Positions 20,385 through 41,380 of a stretch of DNA of 64,000 nucleotides are shown here, one piece after another. Below the pieces are notes generated by a model. It searched no databases, was not told where the DNA came from, and saw only the letters and a list, made by a program, of their open reading frames with translations. Every line of letters begins with the position of its first letter. Positions within the stretch are counted from its first letter, which is position 1. Both the position numbers and the translations under genes were made by a program. The stretch spans positions 1,622,501 to 1,686,500 of the forward strand of contig CP016269.1 of NCBI GenBank assembly GCA_001880285.1. Reading direction: 5' to 3'. The stretch is from Flavobacteriaceae bacterium UJ101 (lineage in GTDB: Bacteria; Bacteroidota; Bacteroidia; Flavobacteriales; UJ101).

Positions 20385-20458
20385 TCCTCCTTAGCTCAGT
20401 TGGTTAGAGCATCTGACTGTTAATCAGAGGGTCCTTGGTTCGAGCCCAAGAGGAGGAG
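20385..20458 (+). tRNA. tRNA-Asn (anticodon GTT), copy 1
   Basis: A 74-nt cloverleaf: acceptor TCCTCCT / AGGAGGA, D-arm TAGCTCAGTTGGTTAGAGCA, anticodon GTT at 20419-20421, T-arm CCTTGGTTCGAGCCCAAG. A G discriminator follows and CCA is not encoded. Confidence 0.96.
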
Positions 20459-20502
20459 CTAATAACTTGAAAAAGTTATTAACTGTTTGTTGTTAATCTG
20501 AT

Positions 20503-20576
20503 TCCTCTTTAGCTCAGTTGGTTAGAGCATCTGACTGTTAATCAGAGGGTCCTTGGTTCGAGCCCAAGAAGAGGAG
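20503..20576 (+). tRNA. tRNA-Asn (anticodon GTT), copy 2
   Basis: It matches copy 1 except for one acceptor-stem pair: TCCTCTT / AAGAGGA replaces TCCTCCT / AGGAGGA, so both strands of the pair changed together. Anticodon GTT is at 20537-20539. A small hairpin (AATAACTT / AAGTTATT) lies at 20461-20480 between the two genes. Confidence 0.96.
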
Positions 20577-20580
20577 CTTA

Positions 20581-21635: not shown

Positions 21636-22676
21636 TTAATTCAATTCCTCAATCTTTTTGGTAACTTTATGTTCTTTGACAGCTATTTTTTCTCTATTAT
21701 ATACTTCAAAATCATGCTCATGATTTTGTAAAAGATGGTCATAAGGCCCTTTAGGAGCAATTAACTTGACAAAAATAGGAGCGGTTTCGAGTATTAAAAA
21801 TAAGAGCATAATAAAAGTGCTGGCAATTGAAATAGCTTTTTCTTTTTTACTTAAAGAACTTAAAGCATGTAATTGAGCGGCAACACCATTATAGCCTTTT
21901 AATACTTTAGAATCTTCTTGATAAATAGTGTCTTTTGTACTTTGAAGCTTATCTAATTTAGTTTGAATATTCTGTAATGATGATTTGCTTTCTTCACGAT
22001 ACTGATCACGTTCTAATTTAGCTAAATTCATTTGCTTTTCTTTTTCTTTAGCTAAAGGTCCATAACCTGCTTTTCCACTAGTGCGATCCCCTTTAGTTCC
22101 CAAACGTTCTAAATCAAATTCTTCTTGGCGTTTTAAATAAATACTGTCTTTTTCTTTTAAAGTTTGGTTAATGAGGTTGTATTCTCTTAAAAGATCTGCA
22201 TTATTAGACTGATAAGTAGAATCGATTTTCGATTTAAGTGTTTTTTGATTTTCTTGATTGATTTCAACCAATTCTTTGTTAATTTCTTTTTGAAAGATAC
22301 GTAGTTCAAGAGGTTTTGAAATGACAACAGCTAGAATAGAAGCTAAAATAATTCGAGGGATTGCCATGGTAAATTGTTTCCAAAACGAATTGGTTTTTCT
22401 CATAGAGGAAACAATAAATCGATCTAAGTTGAAAATCATAAGGCCCCAAACGATACCAAAGCCAATAGCCGCCCAAAGGTTATCAAAAACACTGAACAAA
22501 GCATAACCACCTGATAGAGTTGCTAATAAACCTGTGAAAAAAATAGTACCACCTATTCCAACATGTTTATTGATTTCAGATGGGGTTCTTTTTAAAATAG
22601 AAAGTGAACTTCCTGAACAATAAAGAAAGAATTGGGTTATATAAGAATATTCTTGATGTTTTTGCATGCTTTTCAT
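21636..22676 (-). CDS. DUF4407 membrane protein
   Basis: This 346-residue protein starts with a short cytoplasmic tail. It has two helices at about 33-85 (GIGGTIFFTGLLATLSGGYA), the motif FGIVWGLMIFNLDRFIVSSM at about 75-95, a third helix to about 125, and a long Gln/Lys-rich coiled coil at about 130-255. A last helix near 280-300 (STFIMLLFLILETAPIFVKL) is followed by a charged tail. This layout is DUF4407, a family of unknown function whose coiled coil probably sits in the periplasm. It is the only gene in its unit. Confidence 0.88.
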   Translation of the reverse strand: MKSMQKHQEYSYITQFFLYCSGSSLSILKRTPSEINKHVGIGGTIFFTGLLATLSGGYALFSVFDNLWAAIGFGIVWGLMIFNLDRFIVSSMRKTNSFWKQFTMAIPRIILASILAVVISKPLELRIFQKEINKELVEINQENQKTLKSKIDSTYQSNNADLLREYNLINQTLKEKDSIYLKRQEEFDLERLGTKGDRTSGKAGYGPLAKEKEKQMNLAKLERDQYREESKSSLQNIQTKLDKLQSTKDTIYQEDSKVLKGYNGVAAQLHALSSLSKKEKAISIASTFIMLLFLILETAPIFVKLIAPKGPYDHLLQNHEHDFEVYNREKIAVKEHKVTKKIEELN

Positions 22677-27242: not shown

Positions 27243-28310
27243 CTAAAAAAGAATTTGATCATGGATATAAAAACCGTCCTCACAATAAGTAGCTAGGTCA
27301 TTTTGAATAAATTCATGAACGATAGTAGTATCTTTTTCTGGGTAAAGAAGGTGTACATTGGCTCCTGCATCAAGTGTAAAATATAGGTCAACAGCTTCTT
27401 TTTTTCTAAAATCCCAAACCTTATGGAGAACTTCTAATGTGTTGGGTTGCATAAGGATGAAATAAGGGATAGAAGTCATCATCATAGCATGTAAAGTCAA
27501 AGCTTCACTTTCAACTAATTCTCCGAAAGCTTTTAAATCTCCAGATTGTAAAATTGTTTGTAGTTTTGTAATATTTTCAAATGCTTGTTCAAAACGCCTC
27601 TGAGCATAAGCATGGTGGTGCATTAAATCATGACCTTGAGTACTTGAAACAGTTTTCTGACCTTTATGAACAATTAAAATAGTATCATTGAATTTTTTGA
27701 AAATAGGATGAATTTCAGATTGTAGAGGTTGTGCAATCAAGTTTGAACTATAATCAATTTTAGGATGTTTTCCCCATAAAATTAATCCATTATAAACTGA
27801 TCTGGAAGCACTTCCAGAACCTAAACGAGCTAAGAAGGAAGCTCTTTTTAATTTTTCCTCTTCTGAATAATTAGCACCCATTTCTTTTTCCAATTCGACT
27901 AAACATAATGCTAAAGCACTCATTCCACTAGCAGAAGATGCAATACCACTACTATGAGGAAATGTGTTTTCTGTATGAATTTCAAATTGTAAAGTATATA
28001 AATAAGGACAAAATTCAGCTATTTTTGAGAAAAAAGTATGAATCTTTTTATTGAATGTTTCATTTTCTTTTCCTTCAAAAATGACACTTGATTTAAAACG
28101 TAAATCTTTGGTTCTCTTAGGTCTAAAATGTAAAGTCGTGTGAGTTCGACATTGACTTAAGGTATACGATATAGATGGATTGGCAGGAATTTGATTTTCC
28201 ATTTTTCCCCAATATTTGACTAAAGCAATATTAGAAGGGCTTGAAGCAGATACGTCTCCTTGAATTATAGTGTCATTGCTTTTAAAAGTTTGAGGAATAT
28301 AATCGGCCAT
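27243..28310 (-). CDS. mvaD: Diphosphomevalonate decarboxylase
   Basis: This enzyme makes isopentenyl diphosphate from mevalonate diphosphate using ATP. The 355-residue GHMP-fold protein has SNIALVKYWGKMENQIPANP near residue 25 and the phosphate-binding loop FPHSSGIASSASGMSALAL at about residues 117-135. SGSASRSVYNGLILW follows, as in the family. Use of the mevalonate pathway fits many Flavobacteriaceae. The other mevalonate genes are not in the window. Its start codon overlaps the stop of the upstream SPOR gene by one base (TAATG), so it is translationally coupled. Confidence 0.93.
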   Translation of the reverse strand: MADYIPQTFKSNDTIIQGDVSASSPSNIALVKYWGKMENQIPANPSISYTLSQCRTHTTLHFRPKRTKDLRFKSSVIFEGKENETFNKKIHTFFSKIAEFCPYLYTLQFEIHTENTFPHSSGIASSASGMSALALCLVELEKEMGANYSEEEKLKRASFLARLGSGSASRSVYNGLILWGKHPKIDYSSNLIAQPLQSEIHPIFKKFNDTILIVHKGQKTVSSTQGHDLMHHHAYAQRRFEQAFENITKLQTILQSGDLKAFGELVESEALTLHAMMMTSIPYFILMQPNTLEVLHKVWDFRKKEAVDLYFTLDAGANVHLLYPEKDTTIVHEFIQNDLATYCEDGFYIHDQILF

Positions 28311-28861
28311 TATTTTTTAATTGAATCGTTTTTATTAGAGTTATTAGGCTTCTTTTTAGATTTAGAAGGGCAATATTTGCTGTTCCAATCATCTTTGTCA
28401 ACATATACTTTTGATTGAACAGAAAAGGCTCCTTTAAAAGTTTTACGTATTTTTCTTAAATCAGTTTCCATCTTTTTAGAAGTGAAATAGTTTCCTACGT
28501 AAACTTTATAATTAGGCGTTTCATATCGAACAGAAGCATGAATACTTGGGTACATTTTAGAAAATTGTGCTGCTTTAAAATCAGCTTCAGCTTTACTCTT
28601 AAAACGATCTAATTGAATTTTGTAACCGGGTACTAATCCATTTTTAGGGTAGGGGTGGCAAATATCTTTAGGAGTTTCTTCCGCTATAATTCTTCCTCTG
28701 TTAGAAGCTCTTTTTTTTACGATAAGACTATCAATAGAGGCATCTTGTTCCACTATTAAATTGCTGTTTTGTATTTTTTGTAGAGGTTGTATAGAGTCAT
28801 TTATTTGTGAAAATACCCAAAAAGATAGAAAAAATAAAATGCCTAAAAGTATATTTTTCAT
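28310..28861 (-). CDS. SPOR-domain exported protein
   Basis: This 183-residue protein has an N-terminal signal peptide (to about residue 20, ending WVFSQ), a polar linker, and a C-terminal SPOR domain at about residues 82-158: GYKIQLDRFKSKAEADFKAA through VRYETPNYKVYVGNYFTS and GAFSVQSKVY. A basic Lys-rich tail follows. SPOR domains bind denuded peptidoglycan at division sites. It is paralogous to the next gene upstream, with matching blocks RYETP.YKVY and GAFSVQ. It overlaps mvaD by 1 nt. Confidence 0.88.
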   Translation of the reverse strand: MKNILLGILFFLSFWVFSQINDSIQPLQKIQNSNLIVEQDASIDSLIVKKRASNRGRIIAEETPKDICHPYPKNGLVPGYKIQLDRFKSKAEADFKAAQFSKMYPSIHASVRYETPNYKVYVGNYFTSKKMETDLRKIRKTFKGAFSVQSKVYVDKDDWNSKYCPSKSKKKPNNSNKNDSIKK

Positions 28862-28921
28862 AAATCGATTTCTAAATTCAGGTGTAAATGTACTTAATTT
28901 TTTTTAAGTCTTTTTGATTGT

Positions 28922-29326
28922 TTAGTTTTTAAATTGAACAGAAAATGCTCCTGCATATTTTGAACGTAATTTTAGTGCCGCTTCATCAGCTTCGGCTTCT
29001 GAATTATAAATCCCAGTATAGACTTTATATCGAGGTGTTTCGTATCGAATTTTAATAGGGAGTAATGGGAATTGACTCTTAAATTCATCTACAAGTTTAT
29101 CTGCTTCCTTTTTTGTCTCAAATCGATCTATTAATACAGAGTAATAATATAACCTTTTTGGAGGTTTTGAAATAGTTTTCTCTGGAGTGTTGTTTTTTAT
29201 TGAAAGAGGAATTGCAGGCTTTTTTATATAGGTTATATCAGAAGATTGATTGGGAGTAGTTACCTTTTTGGTAGTGTTACAGCTCAATAGAAAAATGAAT
29301 CCAGTTATTAAGAAGAGATGTCTCAT
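28922..29326 (-). CDS. SPOR-domain lipoprotein
   Basis: This 134-residue protein has a lipobox (FIFLLSC, Cys16), a Thr/Lys/Pro-rich linker and a C-terminal SPOR domain at about residues 58-132 (YYSVLIDRFETKKEADKLVD, RYETPRYKVYTGIYNS, GAFSVQ). It starts the operon that continues with the second SPOR gene, mvaD and the amidase. Both SPOR proteins bear the same YETP.YKVY.G.Y core, so one arose by duplication. Septal peptidoglycan binding is family knowledge. Confidence 0.88.
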   Translation of the reverse strand: MRHLFLITGFIFLLSCNTTKKVTTPNQSSDITYIKKPAIPLSIKNNTPEKTISKPPKRLYYYSVLIDRFETKKEADKLVDEFKSQFPLLPIKIRYETPRYKVYTGIYNSEAEADEAALKLRSKYAGAFSVQFKN

Positions 29327-29435: not shown

Positions 29436-30593
29436 TTATTCAAAAACACCTGAATACACTTCTAAAATTTCTTTTTCTAGTTTTAATAGATCCATTTTTT
29501 TCTCTAAAAGATTTTTTCTAGAGTTAATAAAAGCAAAAAGTTGGTCAATATTGGTTTTAGGAATGGTAGTGTGATTTTCTAACAGTGAGATGTTTTTTTT
29601 GTACAGAGTATGTTTTTTAAGGAGGTTTTGTATTTGTAATTTAATATAGGTGTTTTCTTCTTGGTGTTTTTTATTTTGATATTGTTTTAAAAGACTAAGG
29701 TTTTCTTTTTTAATGGCTAATTCAGCTTCTTTTAAGCTTTTTTTACGAGGAATGAGTAACCCAATTCCTAGTGAAACATTTTTTCTAAATTCAGGAGTAT
29801 CCAAATCTCCAGCTTCTATTTGAAAGAAATCAATAATCTTTCTGTTTTTTTCCTTTTCAAGATTGTGAGATAAATCAAGAAGTTTTTCCTTATAAAGTAA
29901 TTCCTCAATTTCAGTATTCTTTTTTGTAAAATAAGAAGAATCATTATCATTCAATTTTTCTTTGAAATTTTCAATTGAAAAATGATTATGGAAACTATTA
30001 TAATCAAAAACAACATCTTTTTTTTCTAATAAAGAGTGTAAAGTCTCTTCATTTAGTTGACGTTCAGCTATATTTAGCTCTTTTTTTAACTGTATATCGA
30101 GTGTGGTCTCTTTATTTTTTAATAAATCATTAAAAAGTTTAGTATTAGAAGAAGATAGATTGGTTAAAAGCTTTTTTTCTGTATCAGTAATTAATAATAG
30201 ACTGTCCAAAAGAACTTGTTCTTTCTTTAATATGTAAGAATTCATCCAGGTAAGATACCCCAATTGTATTTTTTCATTTTGGAGAATATCTAATTCATCA
30301 TATTTTTCTAATAATGACATATATTGTTTTTCATAATCACGAGTTTTTTTATTAGAAGTGGAAAAACGAACGGAGTAGGATTGTTTCCCTATTTCAAAAT
30401 CTTTGGTTTGAGACCGAACCGAAATTTCAGTAAAAAAATTAGGTTTATAGGATGTTGTTTTTTTATAAGATGTTGATTTTTTTTGAAGTTCCGTTATAAA
30501 AGTATTATACGAAATGGTCTCTTGAGCAGAGAGGATACTCAATGAAAGTATAAACGAAAAGATAAAGAATCTATATTGAAATAGTGTTTTCAT
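29436..30593 (-). CDS. Divergent TolC-like outer-membrane protein
   Basis: This 385-residue protein has a signal peptide (residues 1-23, ending SILSAQ). The rest is almost entirely helical, with long Lys/Glu/Leu stretches and short turns. The order of helix pairs, the repeat-like ends (LDLSHNLEKEKNRKIIDFFQ and KKHTLYKKNISLLENHTTIP) and GIGLLIPRKKSLKEAELAIK are those of TolC-type channels, where the last matches the second-repeat 'GIGISIPL..' region. It is shorter than typical TolC (about 430-490). It ends the DUF4956-HlyD-TolC operon, 14 nt after the adaptor. Confidence 0.72.
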   Translation of the reverse strand: MKTLFQYRFFIFSFILSLSILSAQETISYNTFITELQKKSTSYKKTTSYKPNFFTEISVRSQTKDFEIGKQSYSVRFSTSNKKTRDYEKQYMSLLEKYDELDILQNEKIQLGYLTWMNSYILKKEQVLLDSLLLITDTEKKLLTNLSSSNTKLFNDLLKNKETTLDIQLKKELNIAERQLNEETLHSLLEKKDVVFDYNSFHNHFSIENFKEKLNDNDSSYFTKKNTEIEELLYKEKLLDLSHNLEKEKNRKIIDFFQIEAGDLDTPEFRKNVSLGIGLLIPRKKSLKEAELAIKKENLSLLKQYQNKKHQEENTYIKLQIQNLLKKHTLYKKNISLLENHTTIPKTNIDQLFAFINSRKNLLEKKMDLLKLEKEILEVYSGVFE

Positions 30594-30607
30594 GTTTTAT
30601 AAGGTTT

Positions 30608-31618
30608 TTATTCTATGGAAATAATTACTTTTTCATTTAGAGAAAAGCGGTTATTTTCAGGAATGGTAATAGTTAATTCTTTTCCATAGGTTTTAATTTC
30701 AGGAAATTTTCGTAGTCTTTCAGGAATTTCAATAATTCTTTGTCCAATACTTTTTACATCGCCATTACATAGAAAAGTTTCTTCATCAAAGGTCGAAACA
30801 AGAAGCGTGTCATTTTTTTGAAGATTTAGACGGATATCTTCATGTATAAATCCTTTTACGATGGATGGGTGTGGTTCATAAATAGTAAGTAAGGTATCAA
30901 AAGCAGAGGTGTTTTCGCCTTGTTTACACAAAATAGTTCCTACAACTCCATCTATAGGGGTTCTAATTTCGAGTTGTTTCATTTTACTGGAAATTAAGTT
31001 GATATCATTTTTAATGATTTCCTCACGAGTACTGATTAATTCTTTAGATTGAAGAGCGGTTTGTCTAATCTGTTTAAGGTCTGTATTAAATTTTTGGTTT
31101 AATAATCTTTTTTGTTGATATAAAATATCCAGTTGATGATTGATTTCCGAATAATTTAAGTTTTTAGAATCTTCTCCTATGATTTTTTCAAGAGCTTCTA
31201 TTTGAAATTTCTTGTCCTTTTTTAATTGTGAAATTTGTAAATCGAGCTGTTTTAACTGCTGATTTAAAGTAAGTCTTAGGGTTTGTTCTTGTTGATTGTA
31301 TAGTGTTTGTCCATCTTGTTTTTCTAATGAAAGACCTTCTAAAGCTAAAGAGTTGTTTTTTAATTCTTTTTCTAATTCTATATGTGTTGCAGTTAAGAGT
31401 AAATCTCCCGCTTTTACATGGTCTCCTGTATTCACAAAAACCTCATTAATTTTCACATTTTCTTTAGTGTTAATTTCAGTTTCTTTATTGGTGACTACTC
31501 CATAGAAAGTAACGGTTTCATTATTTACACGATCATTGATGAACCACAGTAAAACAATGGTTATGTAGGTGAAAATATGAATAGGTGTTAAGAATTTATT
31601 TTTAATAAAGGTCTTCAT
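30608..31618 (-). CDS. HlyD-family periplasmic adaptor
   Basis: This 336-residue protein has one N-terminal membrane helix (MKTFIKNKFLTPIHIFTYIT). A barrel-lipoyl part follows (VKINEVFVNTGDHVKAGDLL), then a coiled-coil hairpin of about 120 residues, the second lipoyl half (RTPIDGVVGTILCKQGENTS) and a beta-barrel ending NRFSLNEKVIISIE. The start is the ATG at 31618. The TTG at 31627 is possible but weaker. The 5' end overlaps the DUF4956 gene by 17 nt, implying translational coupling. Adaptors join an inner-membrane exporter to TolC. Confidence 0.85.
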   Translation of the reverse strand: MKTFIKNKFLTPIHIFTYITIVLLWFINDRVNNETVTFYGVVTNKETEINTKENVKINEVFVNTGDHVKAGDLLLTATHIELEKELKNNSLALEGLSLEKQDGQTLYNQQEQTLRLTLNQQLKQLDLQISQLKKDKKFQIEALEKIIGEDSKNLNYSEINHQLDILYQQKRLLNQKFNTDLKQIRQTALQSKELISTREEIIKNDINLISSKMKQLEIRTPIDGVVGTILCKQGENTSAFDTLLTIYEPHPSIVKGFIHEDIRLNLQKNDTLLVSTFDEETFLCNGDVKSIGQRIIEIPERLRKFPEIKTYGKELTITIPENNRFSLNEKVIISIE

Positions 31619-32330
31619 TTTTTGCAAATTTTATTTTGATATTTGAAATAAAAGAAAGTTTTTCTAAATTGTTAATCAATTGAATTGCAGACACATGCTG
31701 TTTTAGCTTTATAGAGTAAGTATAGTCTAATACCTTTTTTTCTTTTTTAGTAGGAGGATCTGTTGTGTTGTCTTCAAAAAGATTTTTTTTAGATAGACAT
31801 TCTGTTAACGAATAAGTAGAACAGTTTTGATTGAGAGCATCAATGGTTTTTAATACTTTCGTCTCCTCAGAATCTGTTGTGAATTTTAAAATACCTTCTT
31901 TGTCATTATTTCGTTGTATGATATTAGGAAAACTGTAGTGTAACAAAATAGCTACGATACAAAAAAACAATGTGCCTATTGTGGCTATCATAACTCCAGT
32001 TACCCCACAAGCAATTCCAGCAGCTAGTGAAGCAAATACAAAGCAGATGTTTCTAGGGTTTTTAAGGTTAGTTCGGAATCGAATAATAGATAAAGCCCCT
32101 AGCATACCTAAACCTCTTGCAAGACTGTCTCCAACGGCCTGTACAATAACACATGAAATAATTCCTATTAAAAAAAGAGTTTGTGTAAAATGATTTGAAT
32201 TATAAGGCTCTTTTTTCGTAAATTCATACGTGAAAGATATAAGAGCTGATAATGCAAAACTCAGCAATATAATGATGAGTATGTTTATTGAGGAATGTTC
32301 AGATGTATTTTGCTTTAGAATTTCAAACAT
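31602..32330 (-). CDS. DUF4956 membrane protein with MgtC-like core
   Basis: This 242-residue protein has about four transmembrane helices in residues 15-140, including VQAVGDSLARGLGMLGALSI then IRFRTNLKNPRNICFVFASL and AAGIACGVTGVMIATIGT. The pattern resembles MgtC (GFLGAG...R...GLTTAAS...AAIGIA.G). The cytoplasmic C-terminus ends like an ACT/ferredoxin-type domain (YTYSIKLKQHVSAIQLINNL). Both similarities were judged by eye. DUF4956 has no established function. It is the first gene of a three-gene operon and takes the place where an ABC or RND exporter would normally sit. Confidence 0.8.
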   Translation of the reverse strand: MFEILKQNTSEHSSINILIIILLSFALSALISFTYEFTKKEPYNSNHFTQTLFLIGIISCVIVQAVGDSLARGLGMLGALSIIRFRTNLKNPRNICFVFASLAAGIACGVTGVMIATIGTLFFCIVAILLHYSFPNIIQRNNDKEGILKFTTDSEETKVLKTIDALNQNCSTYSLTECLSKKNLFEDNTTDPPTKKEKKVLDYTYSIKLKQHVSAIQLINNLEKLSFISNIKIKFAKNEDLY

Positions 32331-32799: not shown

Positions 32800-34215
32800 A
32801 TGATAAAACATAAAACAGTGTATTTTAAACGTTTATTTGTTCTGAGTTTAATACTGGTTTCGTCAGTGTTATCTGCGCAAGATGGTGATGAAAAAAATGG
32901 GTATGGACTCTTTGATGATAAGTGTACTTCTTGTCATAAAATTGGAGGAAAGTTAATTGGACCTGATTTAACAGGTGTAACTGAAAAATACGATGCAGAA
33001 TGGTTGCAGAAATGGATCTTAAATAACAAAGCTTTAATAGAAAGTGGAGATGCCAAAGCAATTGAAGCAGCTAAATTTGATCCAAATTCTGAAATGGATG
33101 TTTTTGAGGGGCAGCTTTCAGAACAAGATGTTAATGATATTATAACATGGTTAAAAGACCCTGTAGAGATTGATACTGATGGTGATGGTATTCCTGATCC
33201 TAAAGATAAATGTCCTACAGAAGCAGGTGTTAAAGAAAATAAAGGGTGCCCTGCAGAACCAGTTGTAGATACTGCAAATGCTGGTGGTGATATGCCAACA
33301 AAAATTCTTTTAGTAGGGTTTGGTGTAATTGCTGTTTTATTATTGTGGTTATTGTACAAAGTTTTCTCTTTAGTGAACGTAATGACAGCACAAGTTCAGA
33401 GTGCAAGTGGAGAAGAAGTTCAGAAAAAGGGTGTAGTAGAATTATTACAACAATACAGACCAGCTGTTAATTTCCTTATTCTATTATTTGGATTATTCGC
33501 AATGAAAGCCATTTTTGGTTGGTTATTAAATATTGATGTGAATAAAGGATATGCTCCAGAGCAACCGATTTATTTCTCACATAAAGTTCACGTAGGAGAT
33601 AATGGTATCGACTGTCAATATTGCCACTCTTCGGCTAAACATAGTAAAACATCAGGAATTCCTTCATTAAATGTTTGTATGAATTGTCATATGTCTATTA
33701 ATGAGTTTACTGGGGAGTTAGATAACGATCGTATCGATGGAACCAAAGAAATGCATAAGATTTATGATTATATCGGATACGATTTAGACAAAGTTGAATA
33801 TACAGGTGAACAAAAACCAATAGAATGGAAACGTATTCACAATATGCAAGACTTTGTTTACTTTAATCACTCACAACACGTGGTGGCTGGTGAGAAAGCA
33901 ATTAAAAAGGCCATTAAAGAAGGGACAGTTCCTAATATTAAAAATATTAATCCAGAACTAGACGATTCACAAGTATGTTTTGCTTGTCATGGAAAAGTAG
34001 ATCAAATGGAAGTGGTTGAAATGGCCAATGATTTCACTATGGGATGGTGTATAGAATGCCACCGTACTACTGAAGTAGATGGTTCAAGTGAATACTATAA
34101 AGCTCATGATTATGATAAAATGCATGAGATGGCTAAAAAAGCACATGGTGAACAAGGTGATAAAATGACTGTAGCTACTATTGGTGGTCTAGAGTGTGGA
34201 AAATGTCATTATTAA
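32800..34215 (+). CDS. actA: Alternative complex III cytochrome c subunit ActA, with extra N-terminal heme domain
   Basis: ActA is the multiheme electron-transfer subunit of the quinol oxidising complex ACIII. The 471-residue protein has a signal peptide (1-27) and one heme site, CTSCH at residues 42-46, in a class I cytochrome domain. A thrombospondin type 3 calcium-binding segment (DTDGDGIPDPKDKCP, about 125-139) follows, then two membrane helices (about 168-190 and 223-243) and five more heme sites at 272, 293, 393, 417 and 466 (all CxxCH). The usual ActA has the last five. The N-terminal heme plus TSP3 linker looks like a fused second cytochrome. It is the first gene of the act operon. 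Confidence 0.93.
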   Translation: MIKHKTVYFKRLFVLSLILVSSVLSAQDGDEKNGYGLFDDKCTSCHKIGGKLIGPDLTGVTEKYDAEWLQKWILNNKALIESGDAKAIEAAKFDPNSEMDVFEGQLSEQDVNDIITWLKDPVEIDTDGDGIPDPKDKCPTEAGVKENKGCPAEPVVDTANAGGDMPTKILLVGFGVIAVLLLWLLYKVFSLVNVMTAQVQSASGEEVQKKGVVELLQQYRPAVNFLILLFGLFAMKAIFGWLLNIDVNKGYAPEQPIYFSHKVHVGDNGIDCQYCHSSAKHSKTSGIPSLNVCMNCHMSINEFTGELDNDRIDGTKEMHKIYDYIGYDLDKVEYTGEQKPIEWKRIHNMQDFVYFNHSQHVVAGEKAIKKAIKEGTVPNIKNINPELDDSQVCFACHGKVDQMEVVEMANDFTMGWCIECHRTTEVDGSSEYYKAHDYDKMHEMAKKAHGEQGDKMTVATIGGLECGKCHY

Positions 34216-34248
34216 TTAATTAGAAAAGTATAAAGAGGTTTTAATAAT

Positions 34249-37200
34249 ATGGCTTCAAATAAACAATATTGGAGAGGTTTCGCAGAATTAGAAGACAATA
34301 CTTTAATTGAAAAATTAGAGACGTCTAATGAATTTCCAGAAAACCTTCCTACAGATGAATTTTTAGGAAACAAACAAGGATTGGATACAACCAAAACCTC
34401 AAGACGTGATTTCTTGAAGTTTGTAGGTTTTTCAACAGCAGCAGCTACATTAGCTTCATGTGAAGGGCCTGTAATTAAATCAATTCCTTATGTAATTAAA
34501 CCTGAAGATGTTACTCCAGGAGTTGCAAGTTATTATGCAACAACTTTAATGAATAATGGAGATTTTGCCTCCATTTTAGTGAAGACTCGTGAAGGACGTC
34601 CAATTAAAATAGAAGCAAATGATTCTGCTAAATATTATGGAGCTACTTCTGCAAGAGTGCAAGGTTCTGTTTTATCGCTATATAATAATGAGCGTTTAAA
34701 AACACCTTTTGTAAAAGGTAAAGAAGCTGACTTTTATGAAGCGGATAAATTTGTAATGGCTGGTTTATATAAAGCTGCTGGAGCTGGAAAACAGATCGTG
34801 ATTCTAACACCTTCTTATCCAAGTCCGTCATTCAAAAAATTAGTAGAAGACTTTAAAACTAAATTTCCAACAGCCAAACAAGTAGTTTACGACGCTATTT
34901 CTGATTCAGCTGCAATTGATGCTTATGAAGAATTTGCGGGTGTTCGTGCATTACCTTCCTATGATTTAGAAAAAGCTAAATTAGTAGTATCATTTGGTGC
35001 AGATTTCTTAGGAGATTGGAATGGTGGAGGATATGAAAAGTCTTACATCAAAGGTAGAAAACCAGGGAAGGATATGGCACGTCATATTCAAGTAGAAGCT
35101 AATATGTCCATGACAGGAGCGAATGCGGATACTCGTTTCCCAATGAAACCAACTAATGTTGAAAAAACATTAGCTAATGTATATCAAATATTAACAGGAG
35201 GTAGTTCTACAGATAAAGTAGCAGGTGCCATTGCTAAAGAAATTAAAGGAGCAGGAAGTAATGCTGTAGTATTAGCTGATGGAAGTAAAGAAGCTTATAC
35301 AATTGCATATACTATTAATGCATTAATTAATTCACAAGTAATTAATACTTCAAAAGCTGTTTTAGTAAAAGAAAGTAATGATAAAGCATTCAACCAATTT
35401 GTAGCTGATTTAAAAGCAGGACAAGTAGGTGCTGTTTTAAACTTTAATACCAATATAGTATACTCTGCTCCTAATACTGCGGAAATCAAAGAAGCATTGA
35501 AAAAAGCAGATTTAAGAGTATCATTTAATATCTTAAAAGATGAGACAAGTGATGTGATGAATGTTTTAATGCCTTCAACACATTGGTTAGAGTCTTGGGG
35601 AGATGCAAACCCTGTTACAGGTGTTTATACACTAATGCAGCCTACCATTCGTCCATTATTTAAAGGAATTCGCCAGTTTGAAGATTCTTTAATGAAGTGG
35701 GCTGATATAGCGGGTACTTATTATGATTATATGAAAGCAAATTGGGATGGAGCTATTTTAGCAAAATCTTCAATAAGCAAATTCAATAAAGCATTGTATG
35801 ATGGAGTGATTGAAACTTCTGATACATTTACAGCAGGAACAGCAACTGGAACTGTTGCAACCGCTGTTTCTAAATTAGCGGCTTCTAAAGCGGGTGCTAC
35901 AGAATTATTATTATATACCAAAGCAGGTATTGGTAATGGTAGTGAATTTCATAATCCATGGATGCAGGAATTCCCTGATCCGATTTCACGTACTTCTTGG
36001 GATAACTATGTTACCATGTCGTATGCAGATGCAAAAGAGCATGGATTATTGAATACCAATGAAATGAACGGAGCAATGAATGGAGGTTATATCAATCTAA
36101 CGATTGGTAAAACTAAAATTGAAAAAATTCCTGTTTTAGTTCAGCCAGGACAAGCAAAAGGTTCTTTAGGATTGGCCGTAGGATATGGTCAACAATCACC
36201 TAAATTAGCTGAGGCAATTGGTCAAAAAGATACAATAGGAGTAAATGCTTATCCTGCTTATAAAAACTTTAATAAAGCACAAAATGTTTCATTTGAAAAA
36301 GTAAGTGGACAACATGGTTTCGCCTGTATCCAATTACAAAACACCTTAATGGGACGTGATAAAATCATGCGTGAAGTAACATTAGCTGATTTTATCAACA
36401 AAAAACCAGAAGAGTGGAATGAAGTAGAAACATTGGCAACACATAATGGTAAGGAACATGTTTCTACCATCGATTTATGGACAAGTTTTGATCGTTCAAG
36501 TGGACATTATTTTAATATGTCAATCGATTTATCAGCTTGTACAGGTTGTGGAGCATGTGTAATATCATGTACAGCAGAGAATAACGTTCCTGTTGTAGGA
36601 AAACATGAAATACGAGTTTCTCGTGATATGCAATGGTTGAGAATTGACCGTTATTATTCTTCTGATCCAACATTTGAAGAAGATGCAGAAAAAGCTGAGA
36701 ATTTAGAAGGTTTAGGTTTAGTTGATTATTTAACAGGTGCAGAAGGTTCTAATGGATCATTACCTGGAAATGCTGAATTAGAAATTCCTCAAGCAGAGAA
36801 TCCTCAAGTTGCTTTCCAACCTGTAATGTGTCAACACTGTAACCATGCACCATGTGAAACAGTATGTCCAGTAGCAGCAACATCACACGGAAAACAAGGT
36901 CAAAATCAAATGGCTTATAACCGATGTGTAGGTACTCGTTATTGTGCAAATAACTGTCCATATAAAGTACGTCGCTTTAACTGGTTTAATTATGCAAATA
37001 ATGATCAATTTAACTTCAATATGAATAACGATATGGGACGTATGGTATTGAATCCAGACGTAGCGGTTCGTTCTCGAGGAGTTATGGAAAAATGCTCTAT
37101 GTGTATTCAAATGACACAGGCAACTATTTTAAAAGCGAAAAGAGAAGGAAGAGCTGTTAACACAGATGAGTTTAAAGTAGCTTGTTCTACAGCATGTCCA

Positions 37201-37356
37201 ACTAATGCAATTGTTTTTGGTGACATAAACAATGAAAATGATGAGATTGTTGCTAAGCTACAAGACAAGAGACAATATTACTTATTAGAACACATTGGAA
37301 CAAAGCCAAATATGTTCTATCAAGTAAAAGTTCGAAATACAGGAAAGAAAAGTTAA
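34249..37356 (+). CDS. actB: Alternative complex III molybdopterin-like/iron-sulfur subunit ActB
   Basis: This 1035-residue protein joins a molybdopterin-oxidoreductase-like domain (about 75-740, which lacks the cofactor in ACIII) to an iron-sulfur domain (about 755-1030). A Tat-type signal lies inside at residues 51-70 (SRRDFLKFVGFSTAAATLAS). The iron-sulfur part has four cysteine clusters: ACTGCGACVISC, MCQHCNHAPCETVCP, CVGTRYCANNCPYK and KCSMC with ACSTACPTN. These fit three 4Fe-4S and one 3Fe-4S centre. Quinol-derived electrons pass through it to the hemes of ActA. It lies 33 nt after actA. Confidence 0.95.
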   Translation: MASNKQYWRGFAELEDNTLIEKLETSNEFPENLPTDEFLGNKQGLDTTKTSRRDFLKFVGFSTAAATLASCEGPVIKSIPYVIKPEDVTPGVASYYATTLMNNGDFASILVKTREGRPIKIEANDSAKYYGATSARVQGSVLSLYNNERLKTPFVKGKEADFYEADKFVMAGLYKAAGAGKQIVILTPSYPSPSFKKLVEDFKTKFPTAKQVVYDAISDSAAIDAYEEFAGVRALPSYDLEKAKLVVSFGADFLGDWNGGGYEKSYIKGRKPGKDMARHIQVEANMSMTGANADTRFPMKPTNVEKTLANVYQILTGGSSTDKVAGAIAKEIKGAGSNAVVLADGSKEAYTIAYTINALINSQVINTSKAVLVKESNDKAFNQFVADLKAGQVGAVLNFNTNIVYSAPNTAEIKEALKKADLRVSFNILKDETSDVMNVLMPSTHWLESWGDANPVTGVYTLMQPTIRPLFKGIRQFEDSLMKWADIAGTYYDYMKANWDGAILAKSSISKFNKALYDGVIETSDTFTAGTATGTVATAVSKLAASKAGATELLLYTKAGIGNGSEFHNPWMQEFPDPISRTSWDNYVTMSYADAKEHGLLNTNEMNGAMNGGYINLTIGKTKIEKIPVLVQPGQAKGSLGLAVGYGQQSPKLAEAIGQKDTIGVNAYPAYKNFNKAQNVSFEKVSGQHGFACIQLQNTLMGRDKIMREVTLADFINKKPEEWNEVETLATHNGKEHVSTIDLWTSFDRSSGHYFNMSIDLSACTGCGACVISCTAENNVPVVGKHEIRVSRDMQWLRIDRYYSSDPTFEEDAEKAENLEGLGLVDYLTGAEGSNGSLPGNAELEIPQAENPQVAFQPVMCQHCNHAPCETVCPVAATSHGKQGQNQMAYNRCVGTRYCANNCPYKVRRFNWFNYANNDQFNFNMNNDMGRMVLNPDVAVRSRGVMEKCSMCIQMTQATILKAKREGRAVNTDEFKVACSTACPTNAIVFGDINNENDEIVAKLQDKRQYYLLEHIGTKPNMFYQVKVRNTGKKS

Positions 37357-37385
37357 ATTTTTAATAGTAAGAAATTATAATAAAT

Positions 37386-38780
37386 ATGTCAGGTCATTAC
37401 GAAGCACCGATTAGGGTTCCATTGATTTTAGGTGATAAAACCTATCATGATATTACGGAAGATATAGCCAGACCCGTTGAAGAAAAAGCTGGAAAGCTAT
37501 GGTGGATAGCATTTTCGATTGCATTTGTTACCTTCCTATGGTTAATAGGATGCGTTTCTTATACAATTGGAACGGGTATTGGAGTTTGGGGATTAAACAG
37601 GACGGTTAACTGGGCATGGGATATTACCAACTTTGTATGGTGGGTAGGTATCGGTCACGCCGGAACATTAATCTCAGCCGTATTACTATTATTCCGCCAA
37701 AAATGGAGAATGTCAATTAACCGTTCCGCAGAGGCCATGACTATTTTTGCCGTGGTTCAAGCAGGATTATTCCCGGTAATTCACATGGGACGTCCTTGGT
37801 TAGGTTATTTTGTAATGCCAATTCCAAATGCATTCGGTTCTTTATGGGTGAATTTTAATTCTCCATTACTTTGGGATGTATTTGCCATCTCAACCTATTT
37901 ATCAGTATCTTTAGTATTCTGGTATATTGGTTTAATTCCTGATTTTGCTATGTTACGTGACCGTGCAAATAAACCTATTACAAAAAAGATCTATAGTATC
38001 TTATCTTTTGGTTGGGGAGGTAAAGCAAAGCACTGGCAACGTTTTGAAGAAGTATCATTGGTATTAGCAGGATTAGCAACACCATTAGTATTCTCAGTAC
38101 ATACCATTGTATCATTTGACTTCGCAACTTCCGTTATACCAGGTTGGCATACCACGATTTTCCCTCCATATTTTGTTGCTGGGGCGATTTTTTCAGGATT
38201 TGCAATGGTACAAACTTTATTAATTGTAGCGAGAAAAGTATGTCATTTAGAAGATTATATTACAATTCAACATATTGAATTAATGAATATTGTAATCATG
38301 GTAACAGGATCTGTGGTAGGGGTAGCCTATATTACAGAGTTAGTGATTGCATGGTATTCAGGAGTAGTATACGAGCAATATGCCTTTTTAAATAGAGCAA
38401 CAGGACCATTTGCATGGGCTTACTGGGCTATGATGTCTTGTAACGTATTCTCTCCACAATTTATGTGGTTTAAAAAGTTGAGAACTTCTATTTCGTTTAC
38501 ATTCTTCTTAGCATTAATTGTAAATATCGGAATGTGGTTTGAGCGATTTGTAATTATTGTAACTTCATTACACAGAGATTATTTACCATCATCATGGACC
38601 GGTTTTGCACCGACGTTTGTAGATGTTGGAATTTTTATAGGAACAATCGGATTTTTCTTTGTACTATTTTTATTATATGCAAGATCCTTCCCAATTGTTG
38701 CACAAGCAGAATTAAAGACGATTTTAAAATCATCAGGTGAAAGTCAAAAAAAGTTAAGAGATGAACATGGAGAACACTAA
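37386..38780 (+). CDS. actC: Alternative complex III membrane subunit ActC (NrfD type)
   Basis: This 464-residue integral membrane protein has about ten helices, the NrfD/PsrC fold that binds menaquinol. The N-terminal cytoplasmic part reads YHDITEDIARPVEEK. Further family features are VWWVGIGHAGTLISAVLLLF (loop and helix with conserved His and Gly), HMGRPWLGYF and GWHTTIFPPYFVAGAIFSGF. The C-terminus ends in a Lys/Glu-rich tail. It follows actB by 29 nt and overlaps actD by 14-20 nt. Quinol binding is family knowledge. Confidence 0.95.
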   Translation: MSGHYEAPIRVPLILGDKTYHDITEDIARPVEEKAGKLWWIAFSIAFVTFLWLIGCVSYTIGTGIGVWGLNRTVNWAWDITNFVWWVGIGHAGTLISAVLLLFRQKWRMSINRSAEAMTIFAVVQAGLFPVIHMGRPWLGYFVMPIPNAFGSLWVNFNSPLLWDVFAISTYLSVSLVFWYIGLIPDFAMLRDRANKPITKKIYSILSFGWGGKAKHWQRFEEVSLVLAGLATPLVFSVHTIVSFDFATSVIPGWHTTIFPPYFVAGAIFSGFAMVQTLLIVARKVCHLEDYITIQHIELMNIVIMVTGSVVGVAYITELVIAWYSGVVYEQYAFLNRATGPFAWAYWAMMSCNVFSPQFMWFKKLRTSISFTFFLALIVNIGMWFERFVIIVTSLHRDYLPSSWTGFAPTFVDVGIFIGTIGFFFVLFLLYARSFPIVAQAELKTILKSSGESQKKLRDEHGEH

Positions 38781-39306
38781 AACAATATACGGCTTATATA
38801 ATGATGACGATGTTTTAATGGACGGGATTCATCATATACAAGAGAAAGGCGTAGAAATTAAAGAAGTTTATACACCATTTCCAGTACACGGTTTAGATCA
38901 TGCTTTAGGGTTGAAAAAAACACGTTTATCTGACTTAGCATTTTGCTATGGTGTTTACGGATTATGTTTAGCTATATTTATGACTTGGTACATCATGACA
39001 TATGATTGGCCACAGGATATTGGAGGGAAACCTTCTGTACATTTTGGAGGAAGTATTCAAGCATGGTTAAGAAGCATGCCAGCATTCGTTCCTGTAATGT
39101 TTGAGCTTACTGTTTTTTGTACGGCTCACTTAATGTGTTTAACCTATTTATTTAGAAATAAGTTATTCCCAGGAGCTAAACCTCAAAATCCAGATGTTCG
39201 TACTACAGATGATATGTTTATGGTTGAAATCGAGGTAGATGATAATCAAGAAGAAGTAATTCAGATTTTGAAAGACTCTGGAGTAGTAGAAATATCAACA
39301 AAATAA
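38767..39306 (+). CDS. actD: Alternative complex III subunit ActD (DUF3341)
   Basis: This 179-residue protein has the ActD plan. An N-terminal soluble part starts TIYGLYNDDDVLMDGIHHIQ, with the motif VYTPFPVHGLDHALGLKKTR and two helices (about 65-85 and 110-130). ALGLK-type family sequence and FRNKLFPGAKPQNPDVRTTD follow. The C-terminus is an acidic tail. Two in-frame ATG codons at 38761 and 38767 are both possible; the second gives MENTKTIYG. It lies inside the operon, overlapping actC. The subunit has no known redox centre. Confidence 0.93.
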   Translation: MENTKTIYGLYNDDDVLMDGIHHIQEKGVEIKEVYTPFPVHGLDHALGLKKTRLSDLAFCYGVYGLCLAIFMTWYIMTYDWPQDIGGKPSVHFGGSIQAWLRSMPAFVPVMFELTVFCTAHLMCLTYLFRNKLFPGAKPQNPDVRTTDDMFMVEIEVDDNQEEVIQILKDSGVVEISTK

Positions 39307-39318
39307 GAAACAGAAAAG

Positions 39319-39918
39319 ATGAAAAAATATATAAAATCAATCGCTATTTTAGGTTTTGCATCCATGATGTTATCTTCTTGTTGGATTGATAAATCAGAAC
39401 CTAATTATGTGTTCATGCCGAATATGTATTATTCAGAAGCATATGAACCTTATGCAAAGGCAGAAAGACCTTGGGATGATCGAGAAAATACTGTAGAAGC
39501 TTTTAAAGATGGTATGACTGCTTTAAAGCCAGTTGCAGGAACAGTTCCAAGAACAGAAGGTGATATTTTACCTATGGATTTGCCTAATACACCAGAAGGT
39601 TATGCAACTTCTAAAACGATTACACAATCACCTTTACCTTTAGATGAGAAAGAGGCTGATTTAGAAAGAGGAGAATACCTTTATGGAATTTATTGTGCGG
39701 TATGCCACGGAGCTAATGGTGATGGAAAAGGTATCTTAGTACAAAATGATAAAATAAAAGGGGTCCCAAATTATAAAGATCGTTCTTATATAACAGTAGG
39801 AAGTGCTCATTGGGTTATTACCAATGGTAGAGGAATCATGGGATCACATGCTTCTCAATTGACATCTAAAGAAAGATGGCAAGTAGCAGAATATGTGATG
39901 AAATTAAAAGGAGAATAA
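39319..39918 (+). CDS. actE: Alternative complex III cytochrome c lipoprotein ActE
   Basis: This 199-residue protein has a lipobox (MMLSSC, Cys21). A proline-rich region of about 90 residues follows, then a class I cytochrome c domain with CAVCHG at 126-131 and the axial Met region GRGIMGSHASQL near residue 175. ActE carries one heme and passes electrons from ACIII to a terminal oxidase or to periplasmic cytochromes. It lies 12 nt after actD and 28 nt before actF. Confidence 0.94.
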   Translation: MKKYIKSIAILGFASMMLSSCWIDKSEPNYVFMPNMYYSEAYEPYAKAERPWDDRENTVEAFKDGMTALKPVAGTVPRTEGDILPMDLPNTPEGYATSKTITQSPLPLDEKEADLERGEYLYGIYCAVCHGANGDGKGILVQNDKIKGVPNYKDRSYITVGSAHWVITNGRGIMGSHASQLTSKERWQVAEYVMKLKGE

Positions 39919-39946
39919 TTTAGGTTGCTAATATAAAAGAAATACA

Positions 39947-41380
39947 ATGTTTAAATTTCCATTTGGATTAAAAGCAATATCAGGAGTTTTAATAGTAGTT
40001 GGATTGTTAGCTTTCATAGTTGGAACTTACCAATCAAGCACAGCTGCACATGATATTGAAGAAAACGGTTATAAATCTGAATATTTAGAAGCTCATCATG
40101 AGCATCAAAAAGAAATAAATGATGAAATGATTGCTAGCGGAGACAGTCCGGCATTAGTTTTAGAAGAACATAATGCTGAAACGGAAGCAAAACACATTCA
40201 TCATGCATACAATCAAATGAAGAATAAGCCATGGACTGCTATTTATATTGCAGCAATTATGTTCTTATTGATTTCATTAGGTGCATTATTTTTCTTAGCA
40301 ATTCAACATGCAGCAAGCGTTGGATGGTCGATCATTCTTGTTCGTATTATGGAAGGTATTGCAACCTATTTGCCCATTGGAGGTGCTATTTTCTTTATTC
40401 TATTAGTTATATCTGGAATGCATTTTAATCATCTATTTCACTGGATGGATGAAAGTTTATTGAATAAATTTATGATTATAGGTGCAGATGGAACAAAAGA
40501 ATATGTTGCTGAAATGGTAGATGGAGCAATTCCTAATCCAGATTATGATTCTATTTTAGCAGGGAAAGAAGCTTATTTAAATGTACCATTCTGGTTAACG
40601 AGAGCAGCTATTTACATAGGAGGATGGATTTTCTTCTTATTTAAATTAAAAGGTCTTTCTATGAAGTTAGATGCTAATCCATTTGATAAAGAAATCTTTA
40701 TTTCTCAACGAAATTGGTCAGCAGGATTTATTGTGTTCTTTGCTGTAACCTCTTCTATGTTGGCATGGGATTGGATTATGTCATTTGACCCACACTGGTT
40801 CTCAACTTTATTCGGATGGTATACATTTGCAAGTTACATGAGTTGTGTATTAGCTGTGATTATTTTAGTGTCTGTATTCTTGAAAGCACAAGGTGTCTTC
40901 CCTGAATTTAATGATAATCATTTACATGATTTAACTAAATTTATGTTTGGATTCTCATTATTATGGACTTATTTATGGTTCTCACAATTTATGTTGATAT
41001 GGTACGCTAATATTCCAGAAGAAGTAACGTATTATTATGCACGTTTTGATGAGCACAAAGTACGCTTCTTAGGAATGTTGATTCCGAACTTCGTAATGCC
41101 ATTATTAATATTAGTAAGTTCATCTATCAAAAGAAATTATAAAGTTGTTTGTAGTATGGCATTTGTTGTGATTTTTGGTCACTATTTAGATTTCTTTACT
41201 ATGATGGAACCAGGTTCAGTAGGAAGCTTTGCTAATATTGGATTTGCTGAAGTAGGTGCTTTCTTGTTCTTTGCAGGATTATTTATCTTTGTGATATTTA
41301 GTGCTCTTACAAAAAGACCTTCTCAACCAAAAGGAAATCCACTACATCATGAAAGTGAAATTTATCATTATCCTTTCTAA
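39947..41380 (+). CDS. actF: Alternative complex III membrane subunit ActF
   Basis: This 477-residue integral membrane protein has a related fold to ActC, with about ten helices. Features are an N-terminal helix, an acidic His/Glu-rich periplasmic loop, WSIILVRIMEGIATYLPIGG, DWIMSFDPHWFSTLFGWYTF, the middle segment FGFSLLWTYLWFSQFMLIWY, and the Lys/Arg loop near the end. It is the last gene of the act operon, which stops at the terminator at 41403-41441. In many Flavobacteriaceae cytochrome oxidase genes follow here, but they do not in this window. Confidence 0.94.
   Translation: MFKFPFGLKAISGVLIVVGLLAFIVGTYQSSTAAHDIEENGYKSEYLEAHHEHQKEINDEMIASGDSPALVLEEHNAETEAKHIHHAYNQMKNKPWTAIYIAAIMFLLISLGALFFLAIQHAASVGWSIILVRIMEGIATYLPIGGAIFFILLVISGMHFNHLFHWMDESLLNKFMIIGADGTKEYVAEMVDGAIPNPDYDSILAGKEAYLNVPFWLTRAAIYIGGWIFFLFKLKGLSMKLDANPFDKEIFISQRNWSAGFIVFFAVTSSMLAWDWIMSFDPHWFSTLFGWYTFASYMSCVLAVIILVSVFLKAQGVFPEFNDNHLHDLTKFMFGFSLLWTYLWFSQFMLIWYANIPEEVTYYYARFDEHKVRFLGMLIPNFVMPLLILVSSSIKRNYKVVCSMAFVVIFGHYLDFFTMMEPGSVGSFANIGFAEVGAFLFFAGLFIFVIFSALTKRPSQPKGNPLHHESEIYHYPF

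Follow-up and report, generated by a model that had tools for sequence, protein, structure and literature searches.

Here, we report that three genes of Flavobacteriaceae bacterium UJ101, encoding a DUF4956 membrane protein, a HlyD-family adaptor and a TolC-fold protein, form a unit that recurs in at least eight phyla and probably specifies an envelope-spanning conduit whose inner-membrane part is DUF4956; a phosphate-rich anion is our guess for its cargo. The genes lie in a 64,000-nucleotide stretch of contig CP016269.1 (hereafter the window). The original prediction, made from the letters of this stretch, described a three-gene set, and that observation is confirmed. Its interpretation, an undescribed tripartite envelope machine or sensor that uses an MgtC-like protein, is supported as far as sequence allows; that the three proteins join in one complex, and that the complex transports a substrate, is our inference. 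The features of the locus are collected in Table 1.

Table 1. Features of the three-gene locus (positions in the window)
Feature	Position	Strand	Basis
DUF4956 protein, 242 aa; proposed inner-membrane component	31602..32330	-	PF16316, AlphaFold, hhalign to MgtC
HlyD-family adaptor, 339 aa	30608..31627	-	HlyD_3 and Biotin_lipoyl above cutoff
TolC-fold outer-membrane protein, 385 aa	29436..30593	-	AlphaFold and Foldseek
DUF4956 membrane helices, residues 10-133 of model	31932..32303	-	H10-38, H46-66, H70-86, H92-109, H113-133
Conserved DUF4956 core motif GDSLARGLGMLGALSIIRFRT, residues 67-87	32070..32132	-	80-sequence alignment
ACT-like C-terminal domain, residues 142-237	31620..31907	-	VIA-align
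Adaptor family-specific motif GQRIIEIPERLRKFPEIKTYGKE	30677..30745 (approximate)	-	78-sequence alignment

The three-gene unit and its recurrence

The gene layout agreed with the predicted one of three leftward genes. The HlyD gene starts at a TTG or at an alternative ATG at 31618, and with the latter it overlaps the DUF4956 gene by 17 nt, as had been claimed; the TolC-like gene begins 14 nt past its end. The open reading frames at 22-42 kb of the window, read by eye and in part scanned with Pfam, included no recognisable exporter ATPase or pump.

Several other features of the window were recorded. Two successive SPOR-domain proteins are encoded downstream on the trio's strand (28310-29326), the first about 110 nt beyond the TolC-like gene, and the region 32800-41380, divergent from the trio, resembles by eye an alternative complex III-like cluster (multihaem cytochrome, molybdopterin-type and NrfD-like proteins). 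Elsewhere in the window, a pair of tRNA-Asn(gtt) genes stands side by side (20385-20577), and a DUF4407 membrane protein is encoded at 21636-22676 (PF14362, E 4.3e-94).

The original prediction proposed a survey of the genomic neighbourhoods of DUF4956. The window genome is the only one in its GTDB family, and a single-protein DUF4956 query of genome contigs gave no matches; an alignment query was used for the survey. The species-genome collection was scanned with the DUF4956 alignment alone and the best-scoring 80 of 565 loci were named, which is why the named loci lean to the window's clade. The 80 loci belong to Bacteroidota, Fibrobacterota, Thermodesulfobacteriota, Myxococcota, Bdellovibrionota, Pseudomonadota, Nitrospirota, Planctomycetota, Sumerlaeota and Delongbacteria. 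Among these best 80 of 565, HlyD and TolC genes together stand beside DUF4956 in 76 loci (HlyD in 77, TolC in 76), and the four incomplete loci all run into contig ends, so that the linkage was upheld and chance adjacency is rejected. The two genes mostly lie straight downstream of DUF4956 with gaps mostly near zero, and DUF4956 heads the unit in most loci across phyla. Among 396 evenly drawn Bacteroidia genomes (confident DUF4956 matches, E <1e-10), HlyD adjoins DUF4956 in the eight best-scoring loci, as does TolC where the stretch reaches. Locus L177 (G459) is excluded from the analysis because its reading was unreliable.

Besides the trio, the relatives' predicted operons contain 66 extra genes. 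No ABC, RND or MFS family recurs there among the 25 commonest of 101 families; neither the window's open reading frames at 22-42 kb nor these operons yielded an exporter completing the set, and the claim of a set without one stood. The recurrent families (again of the 25 commonest) include T9SS tails, CotH and arylsulfotransferase. Pumps and adaptors encoded apart are known, and with 18 OEP domain matches in the window genome the HlyD/TolC pair might serve a housekeeping pump encoded elsewhere, DUF4956 being an accessory of that system. We regard this as very unlikely, given the first position that DUF4956 keeps in most loci and the lack of any recurrent pump family beside it.

Families and folds of the three proteins

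The window DUF4956 protein is a member of PF16316 (E 3.7e-16; 59.8 bits against a gathering cutoff of 30.6) and scores below the cutoff of MgtC/SapB, PF02308 (23.4 against 31.4 bits, E 8e-5). Profile comparison by hhalign with ten MgtC proteins aligned it over residues 16-237, most of its length (94.6%, E 6.9e-8), in line with the likeness to MgtC that had been noticed by eye. Its AlphaFold model (pLDDT 84) comprises five helices and a beta-alpha-beta-beta-alpha-beta tail; the predicted membrane protein was thus retained, while the predicted count of roughly four helices was not. The tail, suspected from the outset to be ACT-like, matched ACT-domain and NikR chains in VIA-align at Z 8.4-9.8, with ribosomal S6 tied. 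Foldseek with the whole model gave mostly ribosomal ferredoxin-like matches at E >1e-3, and a PDB profile search with the sequence returned no MgtC membrane structure. The model has the MgtC-type plan of membrane helices followed by an ACT-like domain, which would lie on the cytoplasmic side.

Across 80 DUF4956 sequences the invariant positions are T38, Q50, G67, G75, A79, I83-R86, F99, G105, G109 and F123, so that the core motif includes invariant G67, G75, A79, I83, R84, F85 and R86. Charge is fully conserved at D68, R84 and R86, and the basic residues R84, R86 and R93 are fully conserved. In a tree rooted on MgtC, whose root depends on long branches, the trio loci form one group (99/97), the DUF4956-VTC(-CotH) loci form a clade, and the window and G004 are paired. 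Profiles and model together mark DUF4956 as a distant relative of MgtC whose tail is ACT-like. It shares profile similarity with MgtC/SapB over both the membrane helices and the C-terminal domain, yet forms its own clade on a long branch and, unlike MgtC/SapB, is joined to HlyD/TolC, VTC and CotH.

This kinship brings in the main rival to a conduit, a regulatory role of the MgtC kind, in which DUF4956 would be a sensor and, by means of its ACT-like domain and by binding partners, would set the timing of the HlyD/TolC pair, or of CotH and a surface-polymer pathway. The MgtC similarity and the ACT-like tail fit such a sensor, as do the MgtC roles known so far, which are regulatory; Salmonella MgtC, for example, acts on ATP synthase and PhoR (cited in PMC12345266). 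In Streptococcus intermedius, deletion of SIR_1592, a DUF4956-like gene whose product is described as MgtC plus ACT, or of the CotH gene SIR_1594, altered the Pel level and lowered aggregation, and the SIR_1592 deletion shifted the amount of Pel and did not abolish it (PMC12345266). A sensor, however, leaves unexplained the pump-less linkage of HlyD and TolC to DUF4956 in nearly all loci of the clade, and we consider this reading unlikely, though deserving of serious attention.

The HlyD-type adaptor with a lipoyl part, as originally read, was corroborated by HlyD_3 (E 1.3e-6) and Biotin_lipoyl (E 8.9e-6) matches, both over the Pfam cutoff. A Pfam check of its cluster label found HlyD_D23 in 67 of 78 family members, and their alignment gave the motif consensus GSRIVEIPERLRKxPxxKTYGRE. 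For the TolC-like protein, Pfam found nothing above cutoff and no OEP match; OEP was matched by 25 of the 74 family members, the window copy not among them. Its AlphaFold model (pLDDT 91.6) has the TolC plan, with two beta-hairpins between long helices, and Foldseek matched it to SilC (E 3.5e-8) and a TolC model (E 8e-8), the SilC, TolC and OprM matches spanning E 3.5e-8 to ~1e-6. The third gene is therefore a divergent TolC-like one, as had been proposed.

In L107 (9690-11663), L110 (9671-11722) and L109 (4247-6877), all outside Bacteroidota, the HlyD protein is longer and its C-terminal part weakly matches beta-propeller-like families (Phytase-like, SdiA-regulated); in the non-Bacteroidota locus L103 (10744-11697) the beta-propeller-like part is a separate gene.

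VTC and CotH genes around DUF4956

The original prediction missed a wider setting of DUF4956, with VTC and CotH genes. We take VTC to have a polyphosphate-polymerase fold and CotH to be a secreted kinase. Near the trio, VTC was found in 18 of the best-scoring 80 of 565 loci, and CotH/LTD genes in 37 of the same 80; in the tree, no locus of the 18 bears a Bacteroidota label and four bear no phylum label. Some non-Bacteroidota loci hold all five genes, and in Gram-negative operons, L084, L105 and L116 among them, DUF4956, VTC and CotH stand together with HlyD/TolC. The VTC catalytic residues are invariant in 34 of 34 sequences. In the Bacteroidia draw, CotH is present in 33 of 33 genomes with DUF4956 against 228 of 396 overall (hypergeometric 4e-9, with kinship ignored; the 33 genomes fall in 14 families).

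A second arrangement, seen in 11 loci, joins DUF4956 and VTC with a different HlyD subfamily, and two of these loci have a canonical OEP TolC adjoining DUF4956. Other loci consist of DUF4956-VTC, with CotH next in the single one checked with Pfam. Some diderm loci, including other Bacteroidota, have DUF4956-VTC without HlyD, and the statement that HlyD/TolC were added in every diderm is therefore too strong. L195 and L196 (G296, G563) belong to genomes with a trio-type DUF4956 and extra DUF4956 copies, with VTC nearby.

The monoderm loci had neither HlyD nor TolC; their order is VTC-DUF4956-CotH in Planococcus, CotH-VTC-DUF4956 in Pseudobutyrivibrio and VTC-DUF4956 in Paenibacillus. A plasmid search for monoderm DUF4956 with the type C DUF4956 query gave no matches, and one with the window DUF4956 protein gave five. 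Two of the five regions were unannotated and read by our own ORF calls, which in the Nonomuraea region did not recover DUF4956; a Hymenobacter plasmid carries HlyD-DUF4956-TolC without VTC.

CotH, polyphosphate polymerase and DUF4956 genes are known from pel loci of streptococci, clostridia and bifidobacteria (PMC7112168), including SIR_1592-1594, and the DUF4956-VTC-CotH arrangement was stated as not found outside Pel loci (PMC12345266), a statement on which the L084, L105 and L116 operons bear. DUF4956 is common to these Gram-positive pel genes and the window trio; some relatives of the trio combine the pel-type CotH, VTC and DUF4956 genes with HlyD and TolC, whereas at the window locus both VTC and CotH are missing. 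A literature search, with most subscription journals outside its scope, found no paper joining CotH, HlyD and TolC, and none joining DUF4956 with MgtC and VTC.

No VTC was found in the window genome, nor in the trio genomes G004, G519, G566 and G660 of the Bacteroidia draw; the window genome has one ppk1. A VTC-made polymer as a general cargo is thus rejected for the window. Its three CotH genes are all unlinked to DUF4956. In G004, the trio adjoins a CotH/LTD protein of 1756 aa that bears a T9SS tail. Two proteins of the window genome resemble it, a CotH protein of 2493 aa at 41% identity and another protein at 29%. The canonical CotH active-site pattern, seen for example in L084 and L105, was matched by none of the window genome's three CotH proteins; this divergence is suggestive only, because the pattern is strict and failed to pick up L187 as well, which Pfam and a PDB match clearly mark as CotH.

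By Pfam, the neighbouring CotH/LTD cluster of 46 members includes 34 with LTD, 28 with CotH and 21 with a T9SS sorting tail. This company, together with the Pel or other glycan genes that adjoin monoderm DUF4956-VTC-CotH genes (PMC7112168), raises the question whether, instead of a phosphoryl donor, the trio handles CotH/LTD surface proteins, in export or maturation, or a surface glycan. We hold this to be quite improbable: glycan genes are not constant partners of the trio, and the sorting tails imply a type IX route for the CotH/LTD proteins.

A proposed conduit and its cargo

We favour a conduit in which the MgtC-like DUF4956 protein would fill the inner-membrane slot normally held by an ABC, RND or MFS pump, HlyD would span the periplasm and the TolC-fold protein would cross the outer membrane, the three forming a single complex that moves a substrate outwards and serves surface CotH-type proteins, to whose genes DUF4956 is tied in the genomes. 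This is the best reading because the unit recurs, the HlyD and TolC folds are those of its partners, and different HlyD and TolC subfamilies have been joined to DUF4956; the lack of a recurrent pump family and the monoderm VTC/CotH-DUF4956 relatives without HlyD and TolC lend it further support. As in type I secretion, MacAB, AcrAB and EmrAB, an adaptor and a TolC-fold protein share one operon, but the inner-membrane partner here is DUF4956 and no pump recurs at the loci. The conduit is weakened by the regulatory nature of the known MgtC roles and by the diderm loci with DUF4956 and VTC but no HlyD.

The cargo is the weakest step of the mechanism and a guess: polyphosphate or another phosphoryl donor, destined for surface CotH-family proteins. 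In the relatives, VTC might make the cargo and feed it to DUF4956, in the manner of yeast VTC, which links the synthesis of polyphosphate to its passage through a channel lined by basic residues (PMC9911596); the window genome would need Ppk1 or some other source for it. Like the yeast complex, the related loci pair a VTC-fold enzyme with a basic-residue membrane protein, but as separate proteins and with an unrelated membrane fold. A phosphoryl donor fits CotH, the intact VTC catalytic residues and R84, R86 and R93 of DUF4956; it is weakened by the lack of VTC in some trio genomes and by the divergence of the CotH motifs. The model is also weakened by the findings in S. intermedius, where no change in aggregation was reported on deletion of the polyphosphate-polymerase gene, in contrast to the DUF4956 and CotH genes (PMC12345266). 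A whole class of pump-less conduits exporting polyphosphate or a nucleotide donor to extracellular CotH-family kinases is a speculative extension that we think distinctly unlikely.

What defines an adaptor-TolC system is its inner-membrane pump, and here an MgtC-like protein appears to take its place in multiple phyla. The ATP source for CotH is an open question (PMC7821199); a donor-export conduit, if true, would answer how secreted bacterial kinases get phosphate, and the phosphoryl-donor question for CotH becomes testable. Overall, DUF4956, a domain of unknown function, gains a concrete setting and a tie to CotH-family secreted proteins.
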